In this document: positions 7,601-21,840 of the stretch, one piece after another
Numbering within the stretch: the first letter of the stretch is position 1
How the letters are laid out: each line of letters begins with the position of its first letter
DNA from: a virus
IMG/VR virus record: IMGVR_UViG_3300042528_000009
Coordinates: 1-21,840 of that record
Length of the DNA stretch: 21,840 nucleotides
Direction: 5' to 3' (one strand)
The notes under the pieces: generated by a model
Seen by the model: the letters and a program-made list of their open reading frames with translations, nothing else
Told to the model about the DNA's origin: nothing
Databases searched by the model: none
Position numbers and translations under genes: made by a program

Positions 7601-7988
7601 CAAAGATGCACCGTTTGCCGCCCCAATACACGAATCCAAAATTAATTGTGTCTGGGGTTTGTCCTGGCTCTGTGTTTGTCACTTCGCATAGCGTCATGAC
7701 GTAAAACAATTTTTGGTTATTGCTGGTGATGCTCAGGTCGGTGACGATGCCGCCGACATAAGCCGTGCCGTACACAATGGGAACCTTGTTGCTGCCCGCT
7801 GGGGGTACTTGTGTCGGGCTTCCAGGGTTTGGCGTTGCGTCATTGGTTCCAAATCCCTTCGGCGCAAATGCTTTGCTGATGATTGACGATGCAACCATGT
7901 TGATGGCAAACGCTGTCGCGGTTGCAGCAAAACCAGCAGCAATAACCCCTGAGCTTACCAAATAACTGGCAATTATTGATCCCGGCAT
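4671..7988 (-). CDS. TipJ-like tail tip / host specificity protein
   Basis: 1105 residues from the ATG at 7986-7988, which overlaps the GNAT stop as TAATG. A TTG at 7998-8000 would add four residues, but the coupled ATG is preferred. Residues 1-45 are hydrophobic and Ala/Ile/Ser-rich. Next comes the family signature NKVPIVYGTAYVGGIVTDLS (about residues 65-84). Around residues 250-500 is the hub-like region (a CADCLIRYNEITAKWGV segment, later LQLEAGDIVTVTNANYGWV, the usual TipJ 'GD.V.V' motif). The C-terminal half is made of beta-rich modules, including NVLVYRNGVLLSTSEYTE, a repeat common in phage fibre proteins. It corresponds to lambda gpJ, which closes the tail tip and contacts the receptor. 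Lambda gpJ is 1132 residues. Confidence 0.9.
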   Translation of the reverse strand: MPGSIIASYLVSSGVIAAGFAATATAFAINMVASSIISKAFAPKGFGTNDATPNPGSPTQVPPAGSNKVPIVYGTAYVGGIVTDLSITSNNQKLFYVMTLCEVTNTEPGQTPDTINFGFVYWGGKRCIFDGVDQYKVIGLLDESTGVTDYAVSGRLNIYLFRNGSSSGVNTAQTAIQIMSNGDLVYQWDASKLMTNAAFAIIEMTYSQTANLTSLQATRFQVTNSRTNPGDCIADYLQSTRYGAALSTSQIDYTSLTALNVYSVTPVAYTTFTGGSAFQPRFKFDGVLTTDVAVMDNIQAMASCADCLIRYNEITAKWGVIVQSSTYTVAMAIDDSRMVSAIQISPIDLSSSYNIIEVKFPDGNNQDSFNTALYDLAEINPSLLYANEPVNKQTVNLNLINNNVRAQVIANRLLEAAREDLQIKVDINYSGLQLEAGDIVTVTNANYGWVAKLFRVSQVVEQFDADGSITANLTLMEFNAAVFDDANVTQFTPAPNTGIGSPLGFGSVPAPTITNILPSAAVPSFGVAVTASSNGIAQYAEVYYSAFASPTDAQRIFAGTTAVNPGGNPYNPGSSMGVVTLTEIPQGDWYFFTRMVNALGSSAFSTASSVLVWRPLTFQYVNRYIAVAYADNATGTVGFSTNPRNKAYFGLFNNTTANPPGGGASAYTWYQASSNFGTTNYLLFSNRQNRKFSFDIGGAAQSNQTGTFVPTDTAKFDTSLWSGLPDGNNYIDLDARTGQLTRVGTTAVSSADGLLNITNNTNGSMVVSLERFLNFGSGVYSKTFNAATLTIDVYGRVVGFTQPDAFYFTENIFTATGGQTSFAVTHVVGNVLVYRNGVLLSTSEYTETTTTVVMNNACAAGETVVVLNMRAVSTDAFYEPLQTAVNTVGSNTVVYTDAPYQLLEAGNVITFANTGSPTQYTVSTVNTSTKTITFTTTLAGVTAGLPIYRYRAAGSAYRPFSRIEVDVTAISTYTPTEITIQNGFELLFINGASLNEIDYDLTPPALGGFPGALTGRFVIIQMAANNLGVPASNITNTVAYSTSGALSYVFPNNPLSMQLYANGALFAKGSSYDYTATTAGYNLTSAINNNFTLLNQQTFARDGAA

Positions 7989-8443
7989 TACATCACCCAA
8001 AATTCTTCAAGTTTTTTAAAGCCGAATTTTTCATATTTAAGATTCGGGCTGCTTACCATTTTGCTGATAAAACAATTGGCAATGCGGCCCGCTTCCTTCA
8101 TCTTAACCGCTTCGTTTAAATACTCACGCAACAATCGGTAGCCTGTTGTGCCGCCTCTGGCTTCTTGATCCACCCAATACGCAAATTCAGTCAGCATCAA
8201 ATGCTTAGGCGACCAAACAGATGGCATCACGGCCGCGATTAAAACGCCCACAAGGCGCTCGTCTTGCTCTGCCACTATCACCACACCCTGGCCCGCCATC
8301 AGATGCGCCAGCATCGTTTTAACGTGTTCCGCATCATCAGCATCAGCTAGGAATCCGTAAGGCATGTGCGAACGGTAATCCCGCAGCTTGTCCAAAATCT
8401 GCGGCACATCAAATGGTGATGCTTTACGAATTTGGGGCCGCAT
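7988..8443 (-). CDS. GNAT-family N-acetyltransferase in tail locus
   Basis: 151 residues from the ATG at 8441-8443. A GTG at 8485 would add MFRSLKRLTISSAK but overlaps more of the preceding gene. The chosen start overlaps that gene by 20 bp and has only a weak ribosome site, so coupling is likely. The fold pattern is clear: MRPQIRKASPFDVPQILDKL at the start, a beta-4 strand (RLVGVLIAAV, residues 63-72), the acetyl-CoA pyrophosphate loop RGGTTGYRLL (96-105; a Thr where many GNATs have Gly), and the motif B YEKFGF (137-142). It transfers an acetyl group from acetyl-CoA to an unknown acceptor. Its place between tail-hub genes and TipJ suggests a role in virion assembly or tail modification, but this is inference. 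Confidence 0.85.
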   Translation of the reverse strand: MRPQIRKASPFDVPQILDKLRDYRSHMPYGFLADADDAEHVKTMLAHLMAGQGVVIVAEQDERLVGVLIAAVMPSVWSPKHLMLTEFAYWVDQEARGGTTGYRLLREYLNEAVKMKEAGRIANCFISKMVSSPNLKYEKFGFKKLEEFWVM

Positions 8444-9029
8444 CTTTGCCGAACTGATAGTTAATCGTTTCAATGAACGGAACACGAATCATGCTTGTGT
8501 CGCCGCTGTTGTAGAACTGCCAGGAACTGTTGTTTGTGTATCTGCCTGCAATTCTGTTTTGCAAAATCAACTGAATTGACGATGCCGATACGCTGATTGT
8601 TCCAACGTACATACGCGCCTCATCCATCCATTGCTCGCCAATGGAGAACGATGTAATGATGCCGTTGAAATACTGATACAAACCGCCCGTGCCGCCCGTT
8701 GTAATCAATGCGCCATTGGTGTCAAAAAACCCATGCCAAAGCTGGATCGGTGAGCCTTTGACGTTTTGGCCCAGGACAAAACCAAGCATAGATGTGTCGA
8801 TGCCCGACAGCGAAACGGTGGTGTCGTTGGCAGTGGATTTAATGTCGCGCTGCACCTGCCCGATTGCCAAGAGTGTCCCGACCGATTGAAAAGGGCTTGC
8901 GTCAACTGCTGCAATGGTCATATTTGATGGCGCAGTGGTCATCAAATAGGTTCCGCTTGTGGTTGTGATTCGCAGGAAATCAGCAATACGGATATTGCTT
9001 GTACCCTCAACTGGCGTGATTACGTTCAC
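8424..9029 (-). CDS. Minor tail / tail hub protein (DUF2163-like)
   Basis: 201 residues from GTG 9027-9029, which overlaps the previous stop as GTGA, with GGAG 8 nt upstream. A TTG at 9065 is possible but would create a 40-bp overlap. The pattern VQRDIKSTANDTTVSLSGID followed by GSPIQLWHGFFDTNGALITT and a YFNGIITSFSI strand is typical of a conserved hub-associated tail protein found between the tape measure and TipJ in many uncultured phages, similar to DUF2163. It ends in INYQFGKDAAPNS. It occupies the lambda L/K position but has no NlpC/P60 peptidase motif (no Cys-His pair in context). It is probably a structural hub component. Confidence 0.65.
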   Translation of the reverse strand: MNVITPVEGTSNIRIADFLRITTTSGTYLMTTAPSNMTIAAVDASPFQSVGTLLAIGQVQRDIKSTANDTTVSLSGIDTSMLGFVLGQNVKGSPIQLWHGFFDTNGALITTGGTGGLYQYFNGIITSFSIGEQWMDEARMYVGTISVSASSIQLILQNRIAGRYTNNSSWQFYNSGDTSMIRVPFIETINYQFGKDAAPNS

Positions 9030-14428: not shown

Positions 14429-14773
14429 TTATACCGCCGTTACAGGGTCTGTCCGGTAGCAAAGCAATTTAACACTCATTCGATCATTCGACTCACGGGC
14501 ATCAGTGATGCGCCAAGTATGGTTGCGCCATGTAACCGAATAAAGGTTTTGGTTATCGACAATTTCTTTTGCGTTTGGGGTGTATCTGATGGTGAGATTT
14601 ACCAAGTCTTGATACACCCTGTATTTTTCGCTGATCTTTAAACTGTTTGCAACCTCAGAAACTTCGGCCCGCGTGTTAAACCACAACGTTTGGGCTGTGG
14701 TTTGTTGACCAAAACTTGACTGCGAAAAAGTCAAGTTATTGATCGAGATATTTTCATATCGACGAATCGACAT
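14429..14773 (-). CDS. Head-tail joining (head closure) protein
   Basis: 114 residues, ATG at 14773 overlapping the connector stop as TAATG. The pattern LWFNTRAEVSEVANSLKISE, then TIRYTPNAKEI, then LYSVTWRNHTWRITDARESN fits the Phage_H_T_join/SPP1 gp16 family (an R-Y-x-P strand followed by the 'Y.V...W.I...RE' segment). These proteins form the stopper ring that plugs the portal after DNA packaging and receives the tail. Length is typical (about 105-115 residues). Confidence 0.75.
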   Translation of the reverse strand: MSIRRYENISINNLTFSQSSFGQQTTAQTLWFNTRAEVSEVANSLKISEKYRVYQDLVNLTIRYTPNAKEIVDNQNLYSVTWRNHTWRITDARESNDRMSVKLLCYRTDPVTAV

Positions 14774-15441
14774 TACATCACCAGCGGTTTATATGGGCGC
14801 AGCAAAGTTGAAACACCATACGGAATTTCTTTCATTGCAATTTCTGTGGTGTTGCTGCGATTGTTGTACAGATGCACAAACAACAACAGGCCAGCTTGTT
14901 TGATTACCGGATATTGCGCCAACGGGTTTGCCGCTGTGGTGTATTCGCAATAAACTGGGCTTGTCATTGCGGAATTTAGATTGCTGGGCAGGCTTTGCAG
15001 CACAACTTTGTTGCCACTGTTGTCGTAGTAGTACTGGTTAGAAGCAACGGTAACCAGCACAGGCGGGGTGGCCTGCGTCCAATACTTCACTGCGTTGATT
15101 TGTACGCCTGACAGCGACGGGCTTTGATTCTGCGAGACTTCAGGCAAGTCTAACGTCAATGGCGTACCGTAAAGCGACGATGCGTTATACCAGACGCGAT
15201 ATTGCGTCGGGAAAATCGACATGCCAAGAAAATCCTCGATGGCCTGCCGCACCGCCAATTCCAGCGACTCAAGGTAGCCGTCTTGCGATTGATCCTCAAA
15301 CAGATTTAACTGCTGCGCGATGCTTTCCGTGTCAAGCCATTGGGTCGCAATGTCGCGCCCGATTTGCTCAACCTTTTCGTAATTGAACGGATTGCGTGTC
15401 GGCGCACCGTAATTTAGATACCCGACTTGTTCATTTGGCAT
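14773..15441 (-). CDS. Head-tail connector, phiE125 gp8-like adaptor
   Basis: 222 residues, ATG at 15441, with CAGGGG 7 nt upstream. The N-terminal half contains a helical segment (DGYLESLELAVRQAIEDFLG, about residues 54-73), and the C-terminus has the family hallmark: an IKQAGLLLFVHLYNNRSNTT helix followed by IPYGVSTLLRPYK. This is the pattern of phiE125 gp8/HK97 gp6-type adaptors that form a dodecameric ring below the portal. It directly follows the capsid genes and is coupled to the joining protein gene, as expected for the neck module. The middle carries a Ser/Gln/Thr-rich insertion. Confidence 0.82.
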   Translation of the reverse strand: MPNEQVGYLNYGAPTRNPFNYEKVEQIGRDIATQWLDTESIAQQLNLFEDQSQDGYLESLELAVRQAIEDFLGMSIFPTQYRVWYNASSLYGTPLTLDLPEVSQNQSPSLSGVQINAVKYWTQATPPVLVTVASNQYYYDNSGNKVVLQSLPSNLNSAMTSPVYCEYTTAANPLAQYPVIKQAGLLLFVHLYNNRSNTTEIAMKEIPYGVSTLLRPYKPLVM

Positions 15442-15452
15442 GTTGGCCCCTG

Positions 15453-16469
15453 TTAGGCGGCAGACATACGAACACCGGCAAACGGATCGCGCACAGATGA
15501 CACCATGCGCTTTTCGGCAAACATCGTAATAAACCCAGGCTGTGTTTGCTCAAATGCCTTAATGGTCATCTGCTCAGTGTCACCAATGGTCAGGAATCGC
15601 GGCCAGTTAGCCAAATACATCGGGAAAGTGGCTGTCAGGTAAGGATTGGCAATGACCGGGAACCCAAACACATGCCCCAAAGCGCAACCATCTTTTTCGC
15701 CAATCTCAAGAAACAGCGGCAAACCTTGGTTGTCTTTTAGTTGGCGCAGCGTTTGAATCATCGTCGGGGTCATGTGCCACATTGTCCCCGGCAGCATCCA
15801 ATATTGCGGAGGCAGCGCGTTTACCATGTCCACAACCTTGTTGTAGGTCACAGCCGACCCGCCAAGCGACACCGTTGCAAGCGTGTGGATGCCGTTTGTA
15901 ATTGCAGTGCCGCTGGTTCCAAATGCGCTTGCCGCGCCGCTGGCGTACATATCCAAGCCCCGCAGGCCATTTGTGCCACCCGTGCTTGTTGTAGTGCTTC
16001 CAGCTTGATCGTTATTGATTGCCATTGAAGTGGCCTCAAGAGCCGAAAACTCTAGCATCAAATCTTCGGCAATCGTTGGCTCAAGGTTATTAACGTCCGA
16101 CAGCACTGCTGTGCGGATCGGCAATTGAGCCACCAACACGCGCACAGGCAATTGCCAAATGCTGGTGTTTACGTTGGGTGAACCGCTATTAGGCGTAAAC
16201 GTGTAGCCCCAAGGATTCGTGCTGTTTGCTGCGTTACCTGTTTTGGCAACAAATTGCATATCCGAGCCAATGGCAGGAATCTGTCGCGCAGCCAAACGAA
16301 AAGGGTTTGCATATCGCAATGCTGCGAAAGCATCATCAAAAACAACATTACCGCCAACACCCGAACCCGAGCCGGTAATTGCCGACGCTTCTTGCAAATC
16401 AATTTTTGCCTCACCGCCTTCGGTGATTGCCTGCTTAATACCGTTGAGGATTTTTTCGGTGATGGTCAT
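15453..16469 (-). CDS. Second HK97-fold capsid protein (paralogue lacking delta domain)
   Basis: 338 residues, ATG at 16469, with a weak ribosome site. It aligns along its length with the preceding major capsid protein: EASAITG (27-33), KTGNA, TSIWQ, PIRTA, NNDQAGS, GLRGLD, AFGTSGT, LKDNQG, GFPVIANPYL, FPMYLANWPRF, PGFITMFAEKR and SVRDPFAGVR. All have close counterparts there. It lacks the ~80 extra N-terminal residues and several surface-loop insertions of the first copy, including about 13 residues before the YPMYFADW-type motif. The gene is intact. It may be a minor capsid, vertex (pentamer) or alternative shell subunit. Reduced expression is likely because a terminator precedes it. Confidence 0.87.
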   Translation of the reverse strand: MTITEKILNGIKQAITEGGEAKIDLQEASAITGSGSGVGGNVVFDDAFAALRYANPFRLAARQIPAIGSDMQFVAKTGNAANSTNPWGYTFTPNSGSPNVNTSIWQLPVRVLVAQLPIRTAVLSDVNNLEPTIAEDLMLEFSALEATSMAINNDQAGSTTTSTGGTNGLRGLDMYASGAASAFGTSGTAITNGIHTLATVSLGGSAVTYNKVVDMVNALPPQYWMLPGTMWHMTPTMIQTLRQLKDNQGLPLFLEIGEKDGCALGHVFGFPVIANPYLTATFPMYLANWPRFLTIGDTEQMTIKAFEQTQPGFITMFAEKRMVSSVRDPFAGVRMSAA

Positions 16470-16491
16470 GATTTGTCCGTTTATTGTTTGG

Positions 16492-16519
16492 AAAAAAGGC
16501 AGGGGACGAATCCCCCGCC
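16492..16519 (-). terminator. Intrinsic terminator between the two capsid genes
   Basis: On the minus strand a 9-bp stem (one G-U pair) with arms GGCGGGGGA and TCCCCTGCC closes a UUCG loop and is followed immediately by six T. It starts 15 nt after the major capsid stop (TAA 16535-16537) and ends 22 nt before the second capsid ATG. This is a textbook rho-independent terminator. Because co-directional genes continue downstream without an obvious new promoter, it is probably partial. Confidence 0.88.
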
Positions 16520-16534
16520 AATGGCTTCCTGCAA

Positions 16535-17884
16535 TTAGGTCGCGGTGCCGGTCGAGCGATAACGCACACCAGCAAACGGGTCGCGCACAGATGTTGCCAA
16601 ACGCTTTTCCCCAAAGAATGTAATAAATCCTGGGAGCGTCTGGTCATATCTCCGCATAACCATGTTCAGACGGTCAATAATGGTATGGAACCGGCTCCAA
16701 TCCGCAAAGTACATCGGATACAGGCTAGTTGTGCCAGCCGACCCCGTTGCGGTTTGCGATGGCGTGTCCAAATACTTGTTGACCACAACGTCAAAGCCCA
16801 GCAACTGACCAACAATACCCTCAACCGACAGACCTTCGTTACGGTTAAAGATCGGTGCGCCGTTGTTGTCCTTCAAATTCCGAATGCCGTTCAGCAAAAT
16901 CGGGCTAATCAGGAACTTGGCGTTTTCTGTCCAATACTGCTGCGGCAGTGCATAGATCAGATTGATAACATCGTTATATGTGATGTTATTTGCGCCGACG
17001 GTATTGCCGTTGGTGGTAATCTGGTCATAAGTTGCCACGTTATGCAGACCGGTCGTCGAACCGGTGCCGCTAGTGCCGAATGCCGAAACGCTGAACGTGC
17101 CGCCCGCGTAAGTAGCATTTGCGCCAGGGTACTGATCCAGACCGCGCAGGCCATCAGCGCCACCGGTTGCAACCGATGTGCCAGTGCCGCTTTGGTCATT
17201 ATTGGCGATCATCGAAATCGCCTCAGACTGTGCGAATTCGGCCAGCATGTCATCGACAACGTTTGCCTCAAGGCCATCAATGTCATCCAGAGCCGCAGTG
17301 CGGATCGGGAATTGGACGTTGATATCCTTCAGCACGATTTGCCAAATGCTGGTGTCCTCGGTTGTTGCCGCGCCGTTGTTTTGAATGGCGTAGCCCCACT
17401 GTGCGCCAGCGTTGCCGGTCTTGACGCGGAATTGATAGCTTGAACCATCAGTTGCCACGGTGCGGGACATGCCGCGCAGCGGGTTGGCAAGACGCAGCGC
17501 ACGAAACACGGGGTCATACGCGGTGCGTCCACCCTGATTATTACCGCCGCCGGTCAGGGCCGATGCCTCGCTCAAATAGGCTTGCATCTCAGCTTCGTTG
17601 GCAAAAATCTTCAGTTCTTTTTCAAACTGCGATTTGCCGCCAATAACTTGTTTCAGTTGCTCACGAACCGATTTGTTCACTTCTTTGCGAACACTGGGGC
17701 TTGTGCGCTCAATGTAAGCAGGCGCTTGCAGGGTGGAAATTTTGGCTTCCAGGGCTGCGACTTTTTCGGTCAGTTCCGCTTTTGCGGCATCTACTTTGGC
17801 TTCAGCAGCCGCCGTGATTTCGCTAATTTTGGCTTCGTTGGATGCTGCGATAGCGTCCAGCTTTTCAATGATTTTGTCAGACAT
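16535..17884 (-). CDS. Major capsid protein, HK97 fold
   Basis: 449 residues, ATG at 17884, with AAAGGT placed 5 nt upstream within the protease stop region. Residues 1-105 form a charged, alanine-rich coiled coil (IAASNEAKISEITAAAEAKV and onwards), the built-in scaffold (delta) domain of HK97-type capsids. EASALTGGGNNQGG (106-119) is a plausible region for cleavage by the prohead protease. The body has typical HK97 features: RALRLANPLRGMSR, SIWQIVLKDINVQFPIRTAA, the spine-like VVDDMLAEFAQSEAISMIA segment and a C-terminal PGFITFFGEKRLATSVRDPF. It directly follows portal and protease. A strong terminator comes after it. Confidence 0.95.
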   Translation of the reverse strand: MSDKIIEKLDAIAASNEAKISEITAAAEAKVDAAKAELTEKVAALEAKISTLQAPAYIERTSPSVRKEVNKSVREQLKQVIGGKSQFEKELKIFANEAEMQAYLSEASALTGGGNNQGGRTAYDPVFRALRLANPLRGMSRTVATDGSSYQFRVKTGNAGAQWGYAIQNNGAATTEDTSIWQIVLKDINVQFPIRTAALDDIDGLEANVVDDMLAEFAQSEAISMIANNDQSGTGTSVATGGADGLRGLDQYPGANATYAGGTFSVSAFGTSGTGSTTGLHNVATYDQITTNGNTVGANNITYNDVINLIYALPQQYWTENAKFLISPILLNGIRNLKDNNGAPIFNRNEGLSVEGIVGQLLGFDVVVNKYLDTPSQTATGSAGTTSLYPMYFADWSRFHTIIDRLNMVMRRYDQTLPGFITFFGEKRLATSVRDPFAGVRYRSTGTAT

Positions 17885-17886
17885 GA

Positions 17887-18690
17887 TTAACCTTTCAAAC
17901 GTGCATTAAGGGCTTGCATCAATTCGCGTTGCTGAAGTGCTTCAAGAATTGCTGCTTCTTCGGCCACCGCATCGGACTCACTCACGATTTGGGGTTTTTC
18001 GACAGGCTTTTGCTGGGCCTCACGCGCCAACAAAATTTTGTCGAACAACAAAGATGCGGTGGTCGCATCCTTTCGGCAAAGCCCTGCCTCACGCAGAGCC
18101 TTTTCCATCGTGCGAGGGTTTACTCGCCCCTCGGCTGTAAAGTATTCCAGCTTTTGCACTTCGGCTGCTGGATTGTTGGGGTACATCACCACGGACACTT
18201 CGCGCAGCCCGCCTTTGGTGATTTGAAAATAACCCTCATCCCAATAATCGCCCGATCCAGCGGGAAACACTTCGCCATCTTCTTTGACCCACTGAAATTC
18301 TTCAGCGTATGCGCCAACCGAAACGCCGCCAAACATTGCGGGGCTTTCGCTCATGACGTTATATAGGTCTGCGCCCTGTGTGGTGTTCATGTACAGCCGT
18401 CCGGTAGCTGTCATGCCCTCATCGTCAAACGCAAATTCTGTCCATTCGCCAACCGGAATTTGATCTGCGGAATGGTTGACAAACATGGGCAGCGGCCTGC
18501 CCGACGATGTAAATTCTTTCGCCCAATCCATGAAGCCTTCGGGCTTATAGAAAAAACGCCGACCATCTGCGCCTTCACGCGGGCCCCAGGTGGTAACTCG
18601 GGCCTCAATCTTTCCGGTCGGTGCTTTTCCGCTTTGTGCGGCCTCGGTTGCTAGTTTGGCTTCGCACAGGATCAGCATTTGCTTGGTCAT
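17887..18690 (-). CDS. Prohead maturation protease (HK97 gp4 / U35 family)
   Basis: 267 residues, ATG at 18690, with GAGGT 6 nt upstream. The domain covers about residues 25-170: GKIEARVTTWG at the start, His73 in the PMFVNHSADQIPVGEW segment, and Ser124 in FGGVSVGAYAEE, the catalytic His and Ser of the family. The FQITKGGLREVSVVMYPNNP strand follows. The C-terminal ~80 residues are helical and rich in Glu, Ala and Gln. The enzyme cleaves scaffold/delta segments during capsid maturation and then itself. It sits between portal and capsid, the standard order. A second ATG (M5) is possible. Confidence 0.93.
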   Translation of the reverse strand: MTKQMLILCEAKLATEAAQSGKAPTGKIEARVTTWGPREGADGRRFFYKPEGFMDWAKEFTSSGRPLPMFVNHSADQIPVGEWTEFAFDDEGMTATGRLYMNTTQGADLYNVMSESPAMFGGVSVGAYAEEFQWVKEDGEVFPAGSGDYWDEGYFQITKGGLREVSVVMYPNNPAAEVQKLEYFTAEGRVNPRTMEKALREAGLCRKDATTASLLFDKILLAREAQQKPVEKPQIVSESDAVAEEAAILEALQQRELMQALNARLKG

Positions 18691-18825: not shown

Positions 18826-20232
18826 TTATTTGCCAATGTTCATTTTCCGGGTCTGATTGCCGCCCCCGCCCCCGGTGTCTTGCGGGCTGCTGCCAGGAAT
18901 TGGTTCCGCTGGTTTTGCGTCACTTTTCAATTGGTCGGCGTTGTCAATTTTACTCATGCCCAAATATTCCCGTGCTTCATTTGTTGTCATGATGCCATTG
19001 GACACGCCAGATTGAGCAAAATTCATTTGATCCAGCGGCGCACCCTTCAGGAAATTTTTGGTGTCGAATTCCACATACAAATTTGGGTAGCCGTTGAAAA
19101 GCTGCTGCTTTAATTTCTGTTGGACGTTCACTAAAACCGGATACATCGTCGATTTATAGAACTCGTCCAGCATCGTTTGCGTGTTGTTGTATTTGCTGTC
19201 CCCCACGCCAACCATGCTTGGCGGAACACCATACACAGCGCAAATCCGCTTCATGGTTTGCAGCTTTAGGTTTGCCAAATCGGTATCTTGCAGCGTCAAG
19301 GGCTTAAGGGCTTCGTATTTCATGCCCTGATCGAGCAGCATTCCTTGTCCGGGTTTGCTCTTGTCGGTCTTTTGGCTTCCGACCATGCTAGACCATGCTT
19401 CTTTCAAGCGTGATGCAATTTCTTTATATTTGCTGTCGGGGATCACCTGCTCAGTGATAAATAACCCGCTAGGCTTTGCGCCGTTCAGCATGACGTAATT
19501 GGCATAAAGATCAATATCTTGATCCAGTCCGACCAACTCAGCAGCCAGGATGCCTTTGTTGAAACCTGCCGAACCTTGCCACGCCTGATCTTTAACGTGC
19601 ATCACCTGATGCATTGCCAGCGGTTCATCTTTGCTGAATCCGTAGCTGGGCGTTGACAGTCGGTAACTAGGATATCGCGCAGGCGTAATCGTGACAGCAA
19701 TCAATGTGCTGTCCAAAATGTACATTTCCAAAGGCGTTTGCGTGTTGCTGTCTTGGTCTTTCCTCCACCACAAGGTGAAGGCTTCGCCAAGCATTTCATG
19801 CCACATCATCCACTGATACCAAAATTCGTATTGGCTTTGGAAGTTATTAGGGTTTTCCAGTAGAGCCAGCACGGATTTGGCTTTTGCTTTGTCTCTTGTG
19901 CCAACTTTGTCCGAGCAGATGGCATCAACATATGTGCCATCGTCGGCCTTCGCCATAATCTTGATTGGCAACTGAGAAATGGCCCGAGCCTTGACGGAAA
20001 CGCACGACATAACCGTGCTGTTGCGTGATAGCAGGCTTGTATCAACCGGCCTGCCTGCATCTGTGGTGCTGCTGGTGGTTACATACAGAATCTGGGTGTT
20101 TACCGTTGGGCGCTTATTGTCGCCTTGATAAACGATGTTGTTCCCAAGCGCCGTTTGCCCATAAAGCGTATTAGACTCATCCGCTTTTGCAGCTTTACGC
20201 TGAAAAATTTCGGGGATACCTGGGATTTTCAT
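18826..20232 (-). CDS. Portal protein, HK97 type
   Basis: 468 residues, ATG at 20232, with TAAGGA at the terminase stop serving as ribosome site. Features in order: an N-terminal arm, NSTVMSCVSVKARAISQLPI (71-90), the LALLENPNNFQSQYEFWYQW helix (121-140) typical of phage portals, LDSTLIAVTITPA (about 173-185), the KPGQGMLLDQGMKYEALKPL segment (293-312) and the crown/stem signature VYGVPPSMVG (333-342). The C-terminus is Pro/Gly-rich (EPIPGSSPQDTGGGGGNQ). Twelve copies form the ring at one capsid vertex through which terminase pumps DNA. Position directly after terminase confirms the call. Confidence 0.96.
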   Translation of the reverse strand: MKIPGIPEIFQRKAAKADESNTLYGQTALGNNIVYQGDNKRPTVNTQILYVTTSSTTDAGRPVDTSLLSRNSTVMSCVSVKARAISQLPIKIMAKADDGTYVDAICSDKVGTRDKAKAKSVLALLENPNNFQSQYEFWYQWMMWHEMLGEAFTLWWRKDQDSNTQTPLEMYILDSTLIAVTITPARYPSYRLSTPSYGFSKDEPLAMHQVMHVKDQAWQGSAGFNKGILAAELVGLDQDIDLYANYVMLNGAKPSGLFITEQVIPDSKYKEIASRLKEAWSSMVGSQKTDKSKPGQGMLLDQGMKYEALKPLTLQDTDLANLKLQTMKRICAVYGVPPSMVGVGDSKYNNTQTMLDEFYKSTMYPVLVNVQQKLKQQLFNGYPNLYVEFDTKNFLKGAPLDQMNFAQSGVSNGIMTTNEAREYLGMSKIDNADQLKSDAKPAEPIPGSSPQDTGGGGGNQTRKMNIGK

Positions 20233-20241
20233 GATGCGTCC

Positions 20242-21840
20242 TTACAAGGTGCGGAAACCAAATCCACTCATTGCGGGATGATCTAAGCTGCAATGCATCG
20301 CAATGATAAGCGCAATAATACCATCTACTTTTGCGCTTTTGTCTGCTTCATTCTTGCGAACCTTGACGTTTCCGTTCACATCTATATAAACCTCGCAGTT
20401 TCCCAACTGCCAGCCCACGAATGGATTGCCATCATGCTTAATCGCGTGTTGCATGATGAGTTTTTCAACGTGTTTTGACGGGTTGCTAAGAACCGCCATG
20501 CCTTGACCCACCTTTTTGACCGGCAATCCCGAATCGTGCAGTCTTGCAACCAGTGACGCTGCGTTGTATGCGTCATAGCCAATTTCGGTCACATGATATC
20601 GGTTTGACTGCTGGATGATGTAATCGCTTATCTCGCGGTCATCCATTACGTTGCCTTCTGTGATGTGCAAAATGCCCGATTGCCGCGCCACACGAAAAAT
20701 ATCGCCGTAATGTTTTGGGATTAGGGAAAACCCTTCCTCGGGCATGAAGAATTTCCATTCGGCTTCAAAATCAGCTTCGTCGTATCGCTTCAAGGTACAA
20801 ACCGCATTAAGGTCGCGCACGGCTGCTAAGTCAAAGCCAATAAAAACCGATTCTGGCTCTCGCTGAGTAATGATGTTGCACTTTGAGTCATCCCAATAAT
20901 TCCGATCAACCCAGGCGCTATTTGCACTGACGTAAAGATTTAAGGTCTTGCATAGAAACTCATTTAAAGCTGCGGGTTTGTGTTTTGCTTCTTCTGCTCT
21001 TTGGGCAATTGCTTCTTCAAAAACGCTTATCCCATGCATCGGGTTTGCTTTTGCCCATGTTGTCGGGTCTCGCCAATCATCGGCAAGATCCAAACTAAAA
21101 AGTAACCCAAACCATCTTGGGTTGTCCGCAGCTTCCCCGGACAGCATTGCTTCCAGCATTTGCATGTCCTCGTAAAACTTGGTTTCTTTTGTAAAACTGG
21201 CGGTGGTGATGTAAATACGCAACGGGTTTTGACGCGCCACCATGCCCGAAAAAAGAACCTCAATGCTGTTGCGATCAACAATTTGCGCCGCTTCGTCAAT
21301 GATGGCGCAAGACGGGTTTTTGCCGTCCCCGGTCTTTTTGGTGTCCCTGCTAAGGGCTTCAAACCGGCTTTGGGCATCGCCCAGCTTTGTGATGCGGTTC
21401 CTGCTTGGATTGAACAGCGCAGCCACATCTGGCGGCATCGCATCAATGAAACCCTGCGCCGCCGTAAACACGATGGATGCTTGGTCGCGGTTTGTCGCCA
21501 AGCAATAGACTTCGGCCCCGGATTCCCCAAAGGCCAGTTCATAAAGCCCAATAGCCGCAATCAGGGTAGATTTGCCAGCCTTCCTGGGGATATAAACAAT
21601 CACATCGCGCACCATTCTTTGCTTTGAGTCTTTTTTTGACCGAAAGCCATAAATGGCGCAAATCAGGAAAATTTGGAAAGGCTGCAAGACTAAAGGCTTG
21701 CCAGCGTCCGGGCCTTTGGTGTGGCACAACGTACCGGCAAACTCTAGAAAATGCTCGACGTAACGGGTGTGGAATTCCCACGCCCACGCCTTATCTTCAA
21801 GCTGGTTTAGGAACCGCTGGCAGGCCAGCCGCACATTGCG
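20242..21840 (-). CDS. Terminase large subunit, N-terminus beyond window edge
   Basis: 532 visible residues, in frame to the last base of the window. A GTG at 21832-21834 could serve as start, but the text VRLACQRFLNQLED is normally interior in this family, so the gene very probably begins beyond the edge. The ATPase half has Walker A (YIPRKAGKSTL, about visible residues 83-93), Walker B (SCAIIDEA, 177-184) and the coupling motif ITTAS (~211). The nuclease half has FIGFDLAAVRDLNAV (first acidic residue ~337), IGYDAYNA (~446) and VDGIIALIIAM (~515). This is the Terminase_1/HK97-like packaging motor: it cuts concatemers and translocates DNA into the prohead. Its stop is 9 nt before the portal ATG. 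Confidence 0.97.
   Translation of the reverse strand, partial: RNVRLACQRFLNQLEDKAWAWEFHTRYVEHFLEFAGTLCHTKGPDAGKPLVLQPFQIFLICAIYGFRSKKDSKQRMVRDVIVYIPRKAGKSTLIAAIGLYELAFGESGAEVYCLATNRDQASIVFTAAQGFIDAMPPDVAALFNPSRNRITKLGDAQSRFEALSRDTKKTGDGKNPSCAIIDEAAQIVDRNSIEVLFSGMVARQNPLRIYITTASFTKETKFYEDMQMLEAMLSGEAADNPRWFGLLFSLDLADDWRDPTTWAKANPMHGISVFEEAIAQRAEEAKHKPAALNEFLCKTLNLYVSANSAWVDRNYWDDSKCNIITQREPESVFIGFDLAAVRDLNAVCTLKRYDEADFEAEWKFFMPEEGFSLIPKHYGDIFRVARQSGILHITEGNVMDDREISDYIIQQSNRYHVTEIGYDAYNAASLVARLHDSGLPVKKVGQGMAVLSNPSKHVEKLIMQHAIKHDGNPFVGWQLGNCEVYIDVNGNVKVRKNEADKSAKVDGIIALIIAMHCSLDHPAMSGFGFRTL

Follow-up and report, generated by a model that had tools for sequence, protein, structure and literature searches.

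A central question in icosahedral assembly is how shell proteins come to form either five- or six-fold rings, and the contribution of the scaffold is not settled. According to a 2026 review, phages of ~40 kb, HK97 and P22 among them, save genome space by relying on one coat protein, and separate penton proteins are rare, with T4 as the phage example (PMC13185644). T4 is described as building its head from gp23, which loses 65 residues, and gp24, which loses 10 and forms eleven vertices (PMC9958956). In the account given for HK97, the scaffold begins with coiled-coil towers, followed by a helix (residues 76-88), a turn, a strand (92-97), and the cleavage site at 103/104. Residues 76-103 form the spoke, whose helix-turn-strand binds the spine helix and P-domain, and which probably locks the subunit in its prohead state (PMC10275583). 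The family 2B two-component encapsulins are reported to co-assemble two HK97-fold proteins with irregular tiling and variable composition (PMC12407261).

The DNA analysed here (the window) comprises a virus record of 21,840 bases with its head genes on the minus strand, among them two adjacent genes for HK97-fold proteins that we call MCP1 and MCP2 (Table 1). Further head-tail genes follow the connector on the same strand. Encapsulins are bacterial compartments without a phage portal or protease, and lie outside phage head operons; here, in contrast, the terminase, portal, protease, and connector genes adjoin the pair. An acetyltransferase gene is found inside the tail module (7988-8485, minus strand, phrog_1249 E 2.3e-20), and an open reading frame at about 8230-8692 of locus L186 resembles it by eye.

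Table 1 Features of the head module in the window.
Feature	Coordinates	Strand	Basis
Terminase large subunit, start near window end	20242..21834	-	PF20441, PF03354
Portal protein	18826..20232	-	PF04860 E 3.1e-63
S78-family prohead protease	17887..18690	-	PF04586 E 6.8e-9
MCP1, 449 aa, major capsid protein of HK97 fold, N-terminal scaffold domain of ~104 residues	16535..17884	-	
MCP1 residues 2-50, candidate coiled-coil tower, predicted as one long helix	17735..17881	-	AF2
MCP1 residues 65-92, predicted counterpart of the spoke (helix 65-82, strand 88-91)	17609..17692	-	
MCP1 residues 104-112, LSEASALTG, putative maturation cleavage site	17549..17575	-	Analogy with HK97 K103/S104
Terminator-like hairpin in MCP1-MCP2 gap, 9-bp stem with 7 GC pairs, then T run	16498..16519	-	
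MCP2, 338 aa, second HK97-fold shell protein without tower-like helix	15453..16469	-	
MCP2 residues 3-24, predicted helix-turn-strand, putative retained spoke	16398..16463	-	
MCP2 residues 25-33, LQEASAITG, putative cleavage site common to MCP1	16371..16397	-	
Head-tail connector, directly after MCP2	14773..15441	-	PF05135 E 3.9e-5, phrog_40 E 1.6e-9

An earlier note made from the letters of the window had described the two products as divergent paralogues with intact frames, which our analysis bears out. Both frames are open from ATG starts and have the claimed lengths, and BLASTP finds 147 identities in 350 positions (42%; 245 bits, E 2e-82). EASALTG begins at MCP1 residue 106 and EASAITG at MCP2 residue 27, as described, and the alignments locate the loops said to be missing from MCP2: 9 aa after GLRGLDQY, 8 aa near MCP1 residues 289-298, and 13 aa near 374-386. 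Both proteins belong to the Pfam family Phage_capsid (PF05065), with E 3.5e-26 and 92.7 bits for MCP1 and E 5.9e-17 and 62.4 bits for MCP2 against a cut-off of 24.2, and both match PHROG major head protein families (phrog_10, 15928, and 617). PF05065 is the only Pfam family matched at E <= 0.001 and no T4-type capsid profile matched, so MCP2 is not counted as a member of the T4 gp24 family. A sequence search of solved structures returned only RcGTA-type capsids for MCP1 (E 1e-4) and no capsid for the MCP2 profile. Predicted alone, as the note had suggested, each protein adopts the HK97 fold. The MCP2 model (pLDDT 72, pTM 0.72) has the RcGTA capsid as its best fold match among those listed (Z 20.7, rmsd 4.1, 253 aligned) and aligns with HK97 prohead I 8fqk_D in VIA-align (Z 17.3, rmsd 3.9, 248 aligned), while the weaker MCP1 model (pLDDT 62, pTM 0.55) matches RcGTA 6tsu_B5 (Z 16.9, rmsd 4.4, 255 aligned). 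Both chains of the family 2B two-component encapsulin are among the fold matches. T4 gp24 is absent among the structural matches listed, an absence that carries no excluding weight.

The locus resembles that of HK97 gp5 in fold, in the portal-protease-capsid gene order, and in a predicted helical N-terminal scaffold; the helices of the models and the conserved motif would suit a fused scaffold of the HK97 subtype. In MCP1, cleavage is predicted at about residue 104, where it is known to occur in HK97 (PMC10275583). The two systems differ in that HK97 makes hexons and pentons from a single protein, whereas here there is a second, tower-less copy. In MCP1, the predicted helix at residues 2-50 (AF2 mean pLDDT 61-74 by block) has no counterpart in MCP2; helix 65-82 and strand 88-91 come next, ahead of the motif (104-112). 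MCP2 has only ~25 residues N-terminal to its motif (25-33), predicted as helix 3-17 and strand 20-24, which is the order of elements in the HK97 scaffold spoke; confidence in this region is moderate (pLDDT 50-64 by block). VIA-align end points, which define the range by its ends only, place MCP2 5/338 on HK97 prohead I 76/382 and 1/338 on D3 prohead I 81/394 (Z 17.2), and MAFFT places the MCP2 N terminus at MCP1 residues 65-92. Comparison of MCP2 residues 1-26 with the MCP1 scaffold by profile gave nothing significant (hhalign probability 0.2%, best hmmsearch E about 0.4), and the case for a spoke therefore rests on predicted structure together with the HK97 paper. Across 124 MCP2 sequences, mean conservation is 0.81 in the first 18 residues, 0.66 in the variable linker, and 0.95 in the motif. 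MCP2 thus seems, from its model, to have dispensed with the tower and kept the spoke. The earlier claim that only one copy has a scaffold holds for the long tower-like helix and fails for the predicted spoke and the cleavage-site motif, which MCP2 keeps. Likewise, the suggestion that MCP2 co-assembles by means of the first copy's scaffold is only half needed, since MCP2 is predicted to have a spoke of its own.

In a collection of 50,697 phage records, the only relatives of either protein at E <= 1e-5 are those of Methylophilaceae phage P19250A, which has both genes. Its genes 0005 and 0006 are the same pair (59.5% and 56.3% identical to the window), with the second annotated as hypothetical. 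The available parts of the literature on P19250A and its relative Venkman carry no remark on a capsid pair, and among the titles and abstract openings found none describes one. IMG/VR scans gave 294 relatives with MCP2, 482 with MCP1, 33 with the P19250A MCP2, at least 591 with an MCP2 alignment, and at least 560 with the connector. The best 80 or fewer loci were kept from each scan, so that the kept loci are the nearest relatives; a genome scan added six contigs from metagenome-assembled genomes (MAGs), and 322 loci were examined, with some contigs occurring twice. Among these nearest relatives, MCP2 is present in 300/300 loci with MCP1 and at least 300 nt after it, MCP1 in 295/295 with MCP2 and at least 500 nt before it, and both genes in 279/279 with the connector and at least 1600 nt before it, including 51/51 of those retrieved with the connector as query (L265-L324). 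The search for phages with the same pair that the note had called for thus found it in every one of the 322 loci with room for it, as well as in the isolate. The order portal-protease-MCP1-MCP2-connector is complete in 208 of the 322, the others being cut, split, or carrying an extra match. Three outgroups, Rhizobium phage X2_25, NatCom_9287, and Burkholderia phage KS9, have portal, protease, and capsid genes in order, with at least one recognisable capsid gene within the ~5 kb fetched. A scan for tandem capsid genes in bacteria gave 18 matches in 12 of 229 genomes and no tandem pair; it missed a known second copy and is given no weight.

Two loci (L099 and L215) lie about 38 kb apart on one 75,987-base IMG/VR contig and are different copies of the head module, the contig being a concatemer, a double prophage, or a chimeric assembly. 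Contigs L181-L186 come from MAGs whose titles name beta-, gamma-, and alphaproteobacteria as well as Nitrosotalea, and because these titles are so mixed they look like poor evidence of the host.

A tree of 69 phages (138 paralogues and three outgroups) puts MCP1 and MCP2 on opposite sides of a branch (SH-aLRT 93 and 98), consistent with a single duplication that preceded the spread of the group; the root is unsure because the outgroups sit on very long branches. Purifying selection is similarly strong on the two copies. Median dN/dS is 0.132 for MCP1 and 0.144 for MCP2 (579 pairs), or 0.114 and 0.090 at dS 0.1-0.8 (206 pairs), values close to those of the protease and connector and higher than that of the portal. 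Identity to the window is 97% for MCP1 and 85% for MCP2 in L015, and 76% and 87% in L016, a mismatch suggesting that the two genes have at times been exchanged separately, as in a mosaic ancestry. An in-frame stop interrupts MCP1 in L042 (TAG) and MCP2 in L131 (TAA), where error, mutation, and suppression are indistinguishable.

The putative cleavage-site motif is where the likeness between the paralogues of one phage most exceeds chance. Over 337 shared columns, identity between paralogues of the same phage is barely above that between paralogues of different phages (0.412 vs 0.407), and the motif window has the largest within-phage excess anywhere along the shared length (z 5.7), with the next separate windows at z 3.2 or less. 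At MCP1 positions 107-108, residues deviate from the common ones in both paralogues of 6 phages, in MCP1 only in 1, in MCP2 only in 1, and in neither in 61 (Fisher p 4e-7, uncorrected for kinship); on the tree this amounts to few independent events (4 agree, 0 disagree, 2 show no difference, p 0.125). The sharing hints at one common protease, presumably the S78 protease acting on both proteins, and by analogy with HK97 we infer cleavage at EASA(L/I)TG in each. General gene conversion as the source of the sharing is not favoured: identical residues use the same codon within a phage in 0.47 of cases in the motif vs 0.52 elsewhere, although compared with pairs from different phages these values are higher by 0.10 in the motif and by 0.07 outside it. 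Local conversion at the motif is possible in P19250A.

The two genes are separated by a median gap of 62 nt, compared with 3 nt between protease and MCP1 and 2 nt between MCP2 and connector. Of 204 distinct pairs, 177 have in this gap, by a strict per-sequence scan, a hairpin with a T run behind it; the corresponding counts in five control segments are 5/204, 0/204, 0/202, 0/202, and 0/142, and the rate in shuffled sequences is 0.6%. The 27 misses include nine hairpins without a T run, one gap with neither, and several others with both by eye that the scan mis-scored. The gaps fold with a median z of -2.6 (68 gaps). Terminator-like sites in the window region occur at shuffle frequency (11 found, 11.8 expected), and the hairpin of the window therefore counts solely through its conservation. 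RNAalifold on gaps from 29 of the 69 thinned phages kept just 3 pairs, because the hairpins vary in length and place, and we relied on the per-sequence scan. In 2 of the 3 outgroups the capsid gene is followed by a hairpin that has no T run, and terminators after capsid genes are known in other phages such as T7. The conserved hairpin would lower the expression of MCP2 together with that of the genes that follow, which suggests that MCP2 is made in low amounts and is no argument for vertices. Further downstream, MCP2 codons 2-40 (16350-16466, minus strand) show synonymous change of about half the gene average in three successive 13-codon windows, and include the lowest 26-codon synonymous window of the five head genes (0.53 vs 0.67-0.83); no RNA structure that might underlie this was found in 40 phages.

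The likeness to T4 gp23/gp24 raised in the earlier note survives as a parallel between probably separate inventions. Both systems have two HK97-fold paralogues and one prohead protease, and the second paralogue has a far shorter propeptide in T4 and is predicted to have one here. MCP2 is an HK97-fold paralogue of the probable hexon protein, and in sequence it has a short N terminus and a shared motif that may mark a short propeptide. The predicted propeptides are about 104 and 25 residues here, compared with 65 and 10 in T4, and the paralogues are 42% identical with the scaffold fused to MCP1, whereas the T4 pair is described as ~20% identical with a separate scaffold core (PMC9958956). T4 has a ~145-kb genome and a prolate head (PMC13185644), and the genome of P19250A is 38.7 kb. 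We take the two pairs to be separate duplications, and by this analogy MCP2 would at most work like gp24.

We put at slightly better than even the chance that MCP2 forms a minor part of the shell, most likely its pentons, and shares its processing protease with MCP1, in a division of labour analogous to gp23/gp24. MCP1 would be the hexon-forming major capsid protein with a full scaffold comprising tower helix, helix-strand spoke, and cleavage site, and one ancient tandem duplication would have produced MCP2, which then lost the tower and kept the spoke. The spoke would allow MCP2 to join the same prohead while adding no tower, the S78 protease would free it at the shared site, and the hairpin would group its output with that of the connector and tail genes. 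Placed at 11 of 12 vertices in a T4-like division, MCP2 would number 55 copies to 360 of MCP1 if the head is T=7, the size assumed from the 38.7-kb genome of P19250A. In the HK97 prohead, as described, a single weakly connected scaffold density lies at each penton, compared with a pair of three-subunit lobes at each hexon, and at ordinary vertices the surrounding scaffold domains hardly touch the penton (PMC10275583). On this picture, a penton might do best without towers.

Alternatively, MCP2 could mix with MCP1 in hexons, and perhaps pentons, with no fixed place, tuning tower crowding or shell properties. We consider this unlikely. The irregular co-assembly of two HK97-fold proteins in two-component encapsulins is a precedent (PMC12407261), and residues that distinguish MCP1 from MCP2 are not limited to the A-domain, being unenriched over the whole domain (p 0.35) and enriched in a part of it picked afterwards (p 0.022). 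However, portal-adjacent HK97 hexons are reported to carry two trimeric towers each, and other hexons a two-lobed density with three subunits per lobe (PMC10275583), trimers that tower-less subunits would break in an HK97-like shell; the presence of the pair without exception in the 322 loci also suggests a fixed role. Both arguments are indirect. It is less probable still that MCP2, rather than serving as a regular penton, is positioned at the unique portal vertex or adjacent to it, or acts as a regulator of prohead-stage assembly. Its gene does adjoin that of the connector and lies behind the hairpin together with the connector and tail genes, but MCP2 retains a complete HK97 fold, and the HK97 portal is described as touched mainly by spacers and coiled coils (PMC10275583), the part that MCP2 lacks. 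A role as alternative major capsid protein of a second particle type, for example of another size, would suit the complete fold and scaffold-like start of MCP2 and appears very improbable given that it has no tower of its own and that the two genes are neighbours downstream of a single portal gene and a single protease gene. We give hardly any credence to a redundant or decaying duplicate, the alternative named in the earlier note: MCP2 is less conserved than MCP1 across the whole group and is split by an in-frame stop in one of the 322 loci, but its dN/dS is like that of MCP1, it is retained wherever this could be tested, and MCP1 is itself split in two loci.

A more far-reaching proposal, which we put at somewhat below an even chance, is that this lineage of ~38-kb tailed phages independently evolved a dedicated penton protein by splitting the scaffold, the penton copy retaining spoke and cleavage site without the coiled-coil tower, with the tower marking hexon from penton and the terminator setting the ratio of the two proteins. 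The conserved pair runs counter to the expectation that a small-genome lineage makes do with a single coat protein. If true, the proposal would mean that the tower and spoke of an HK97-type scaffold have been separated in nature, and that their roles could be tested in the isolate P19250A.
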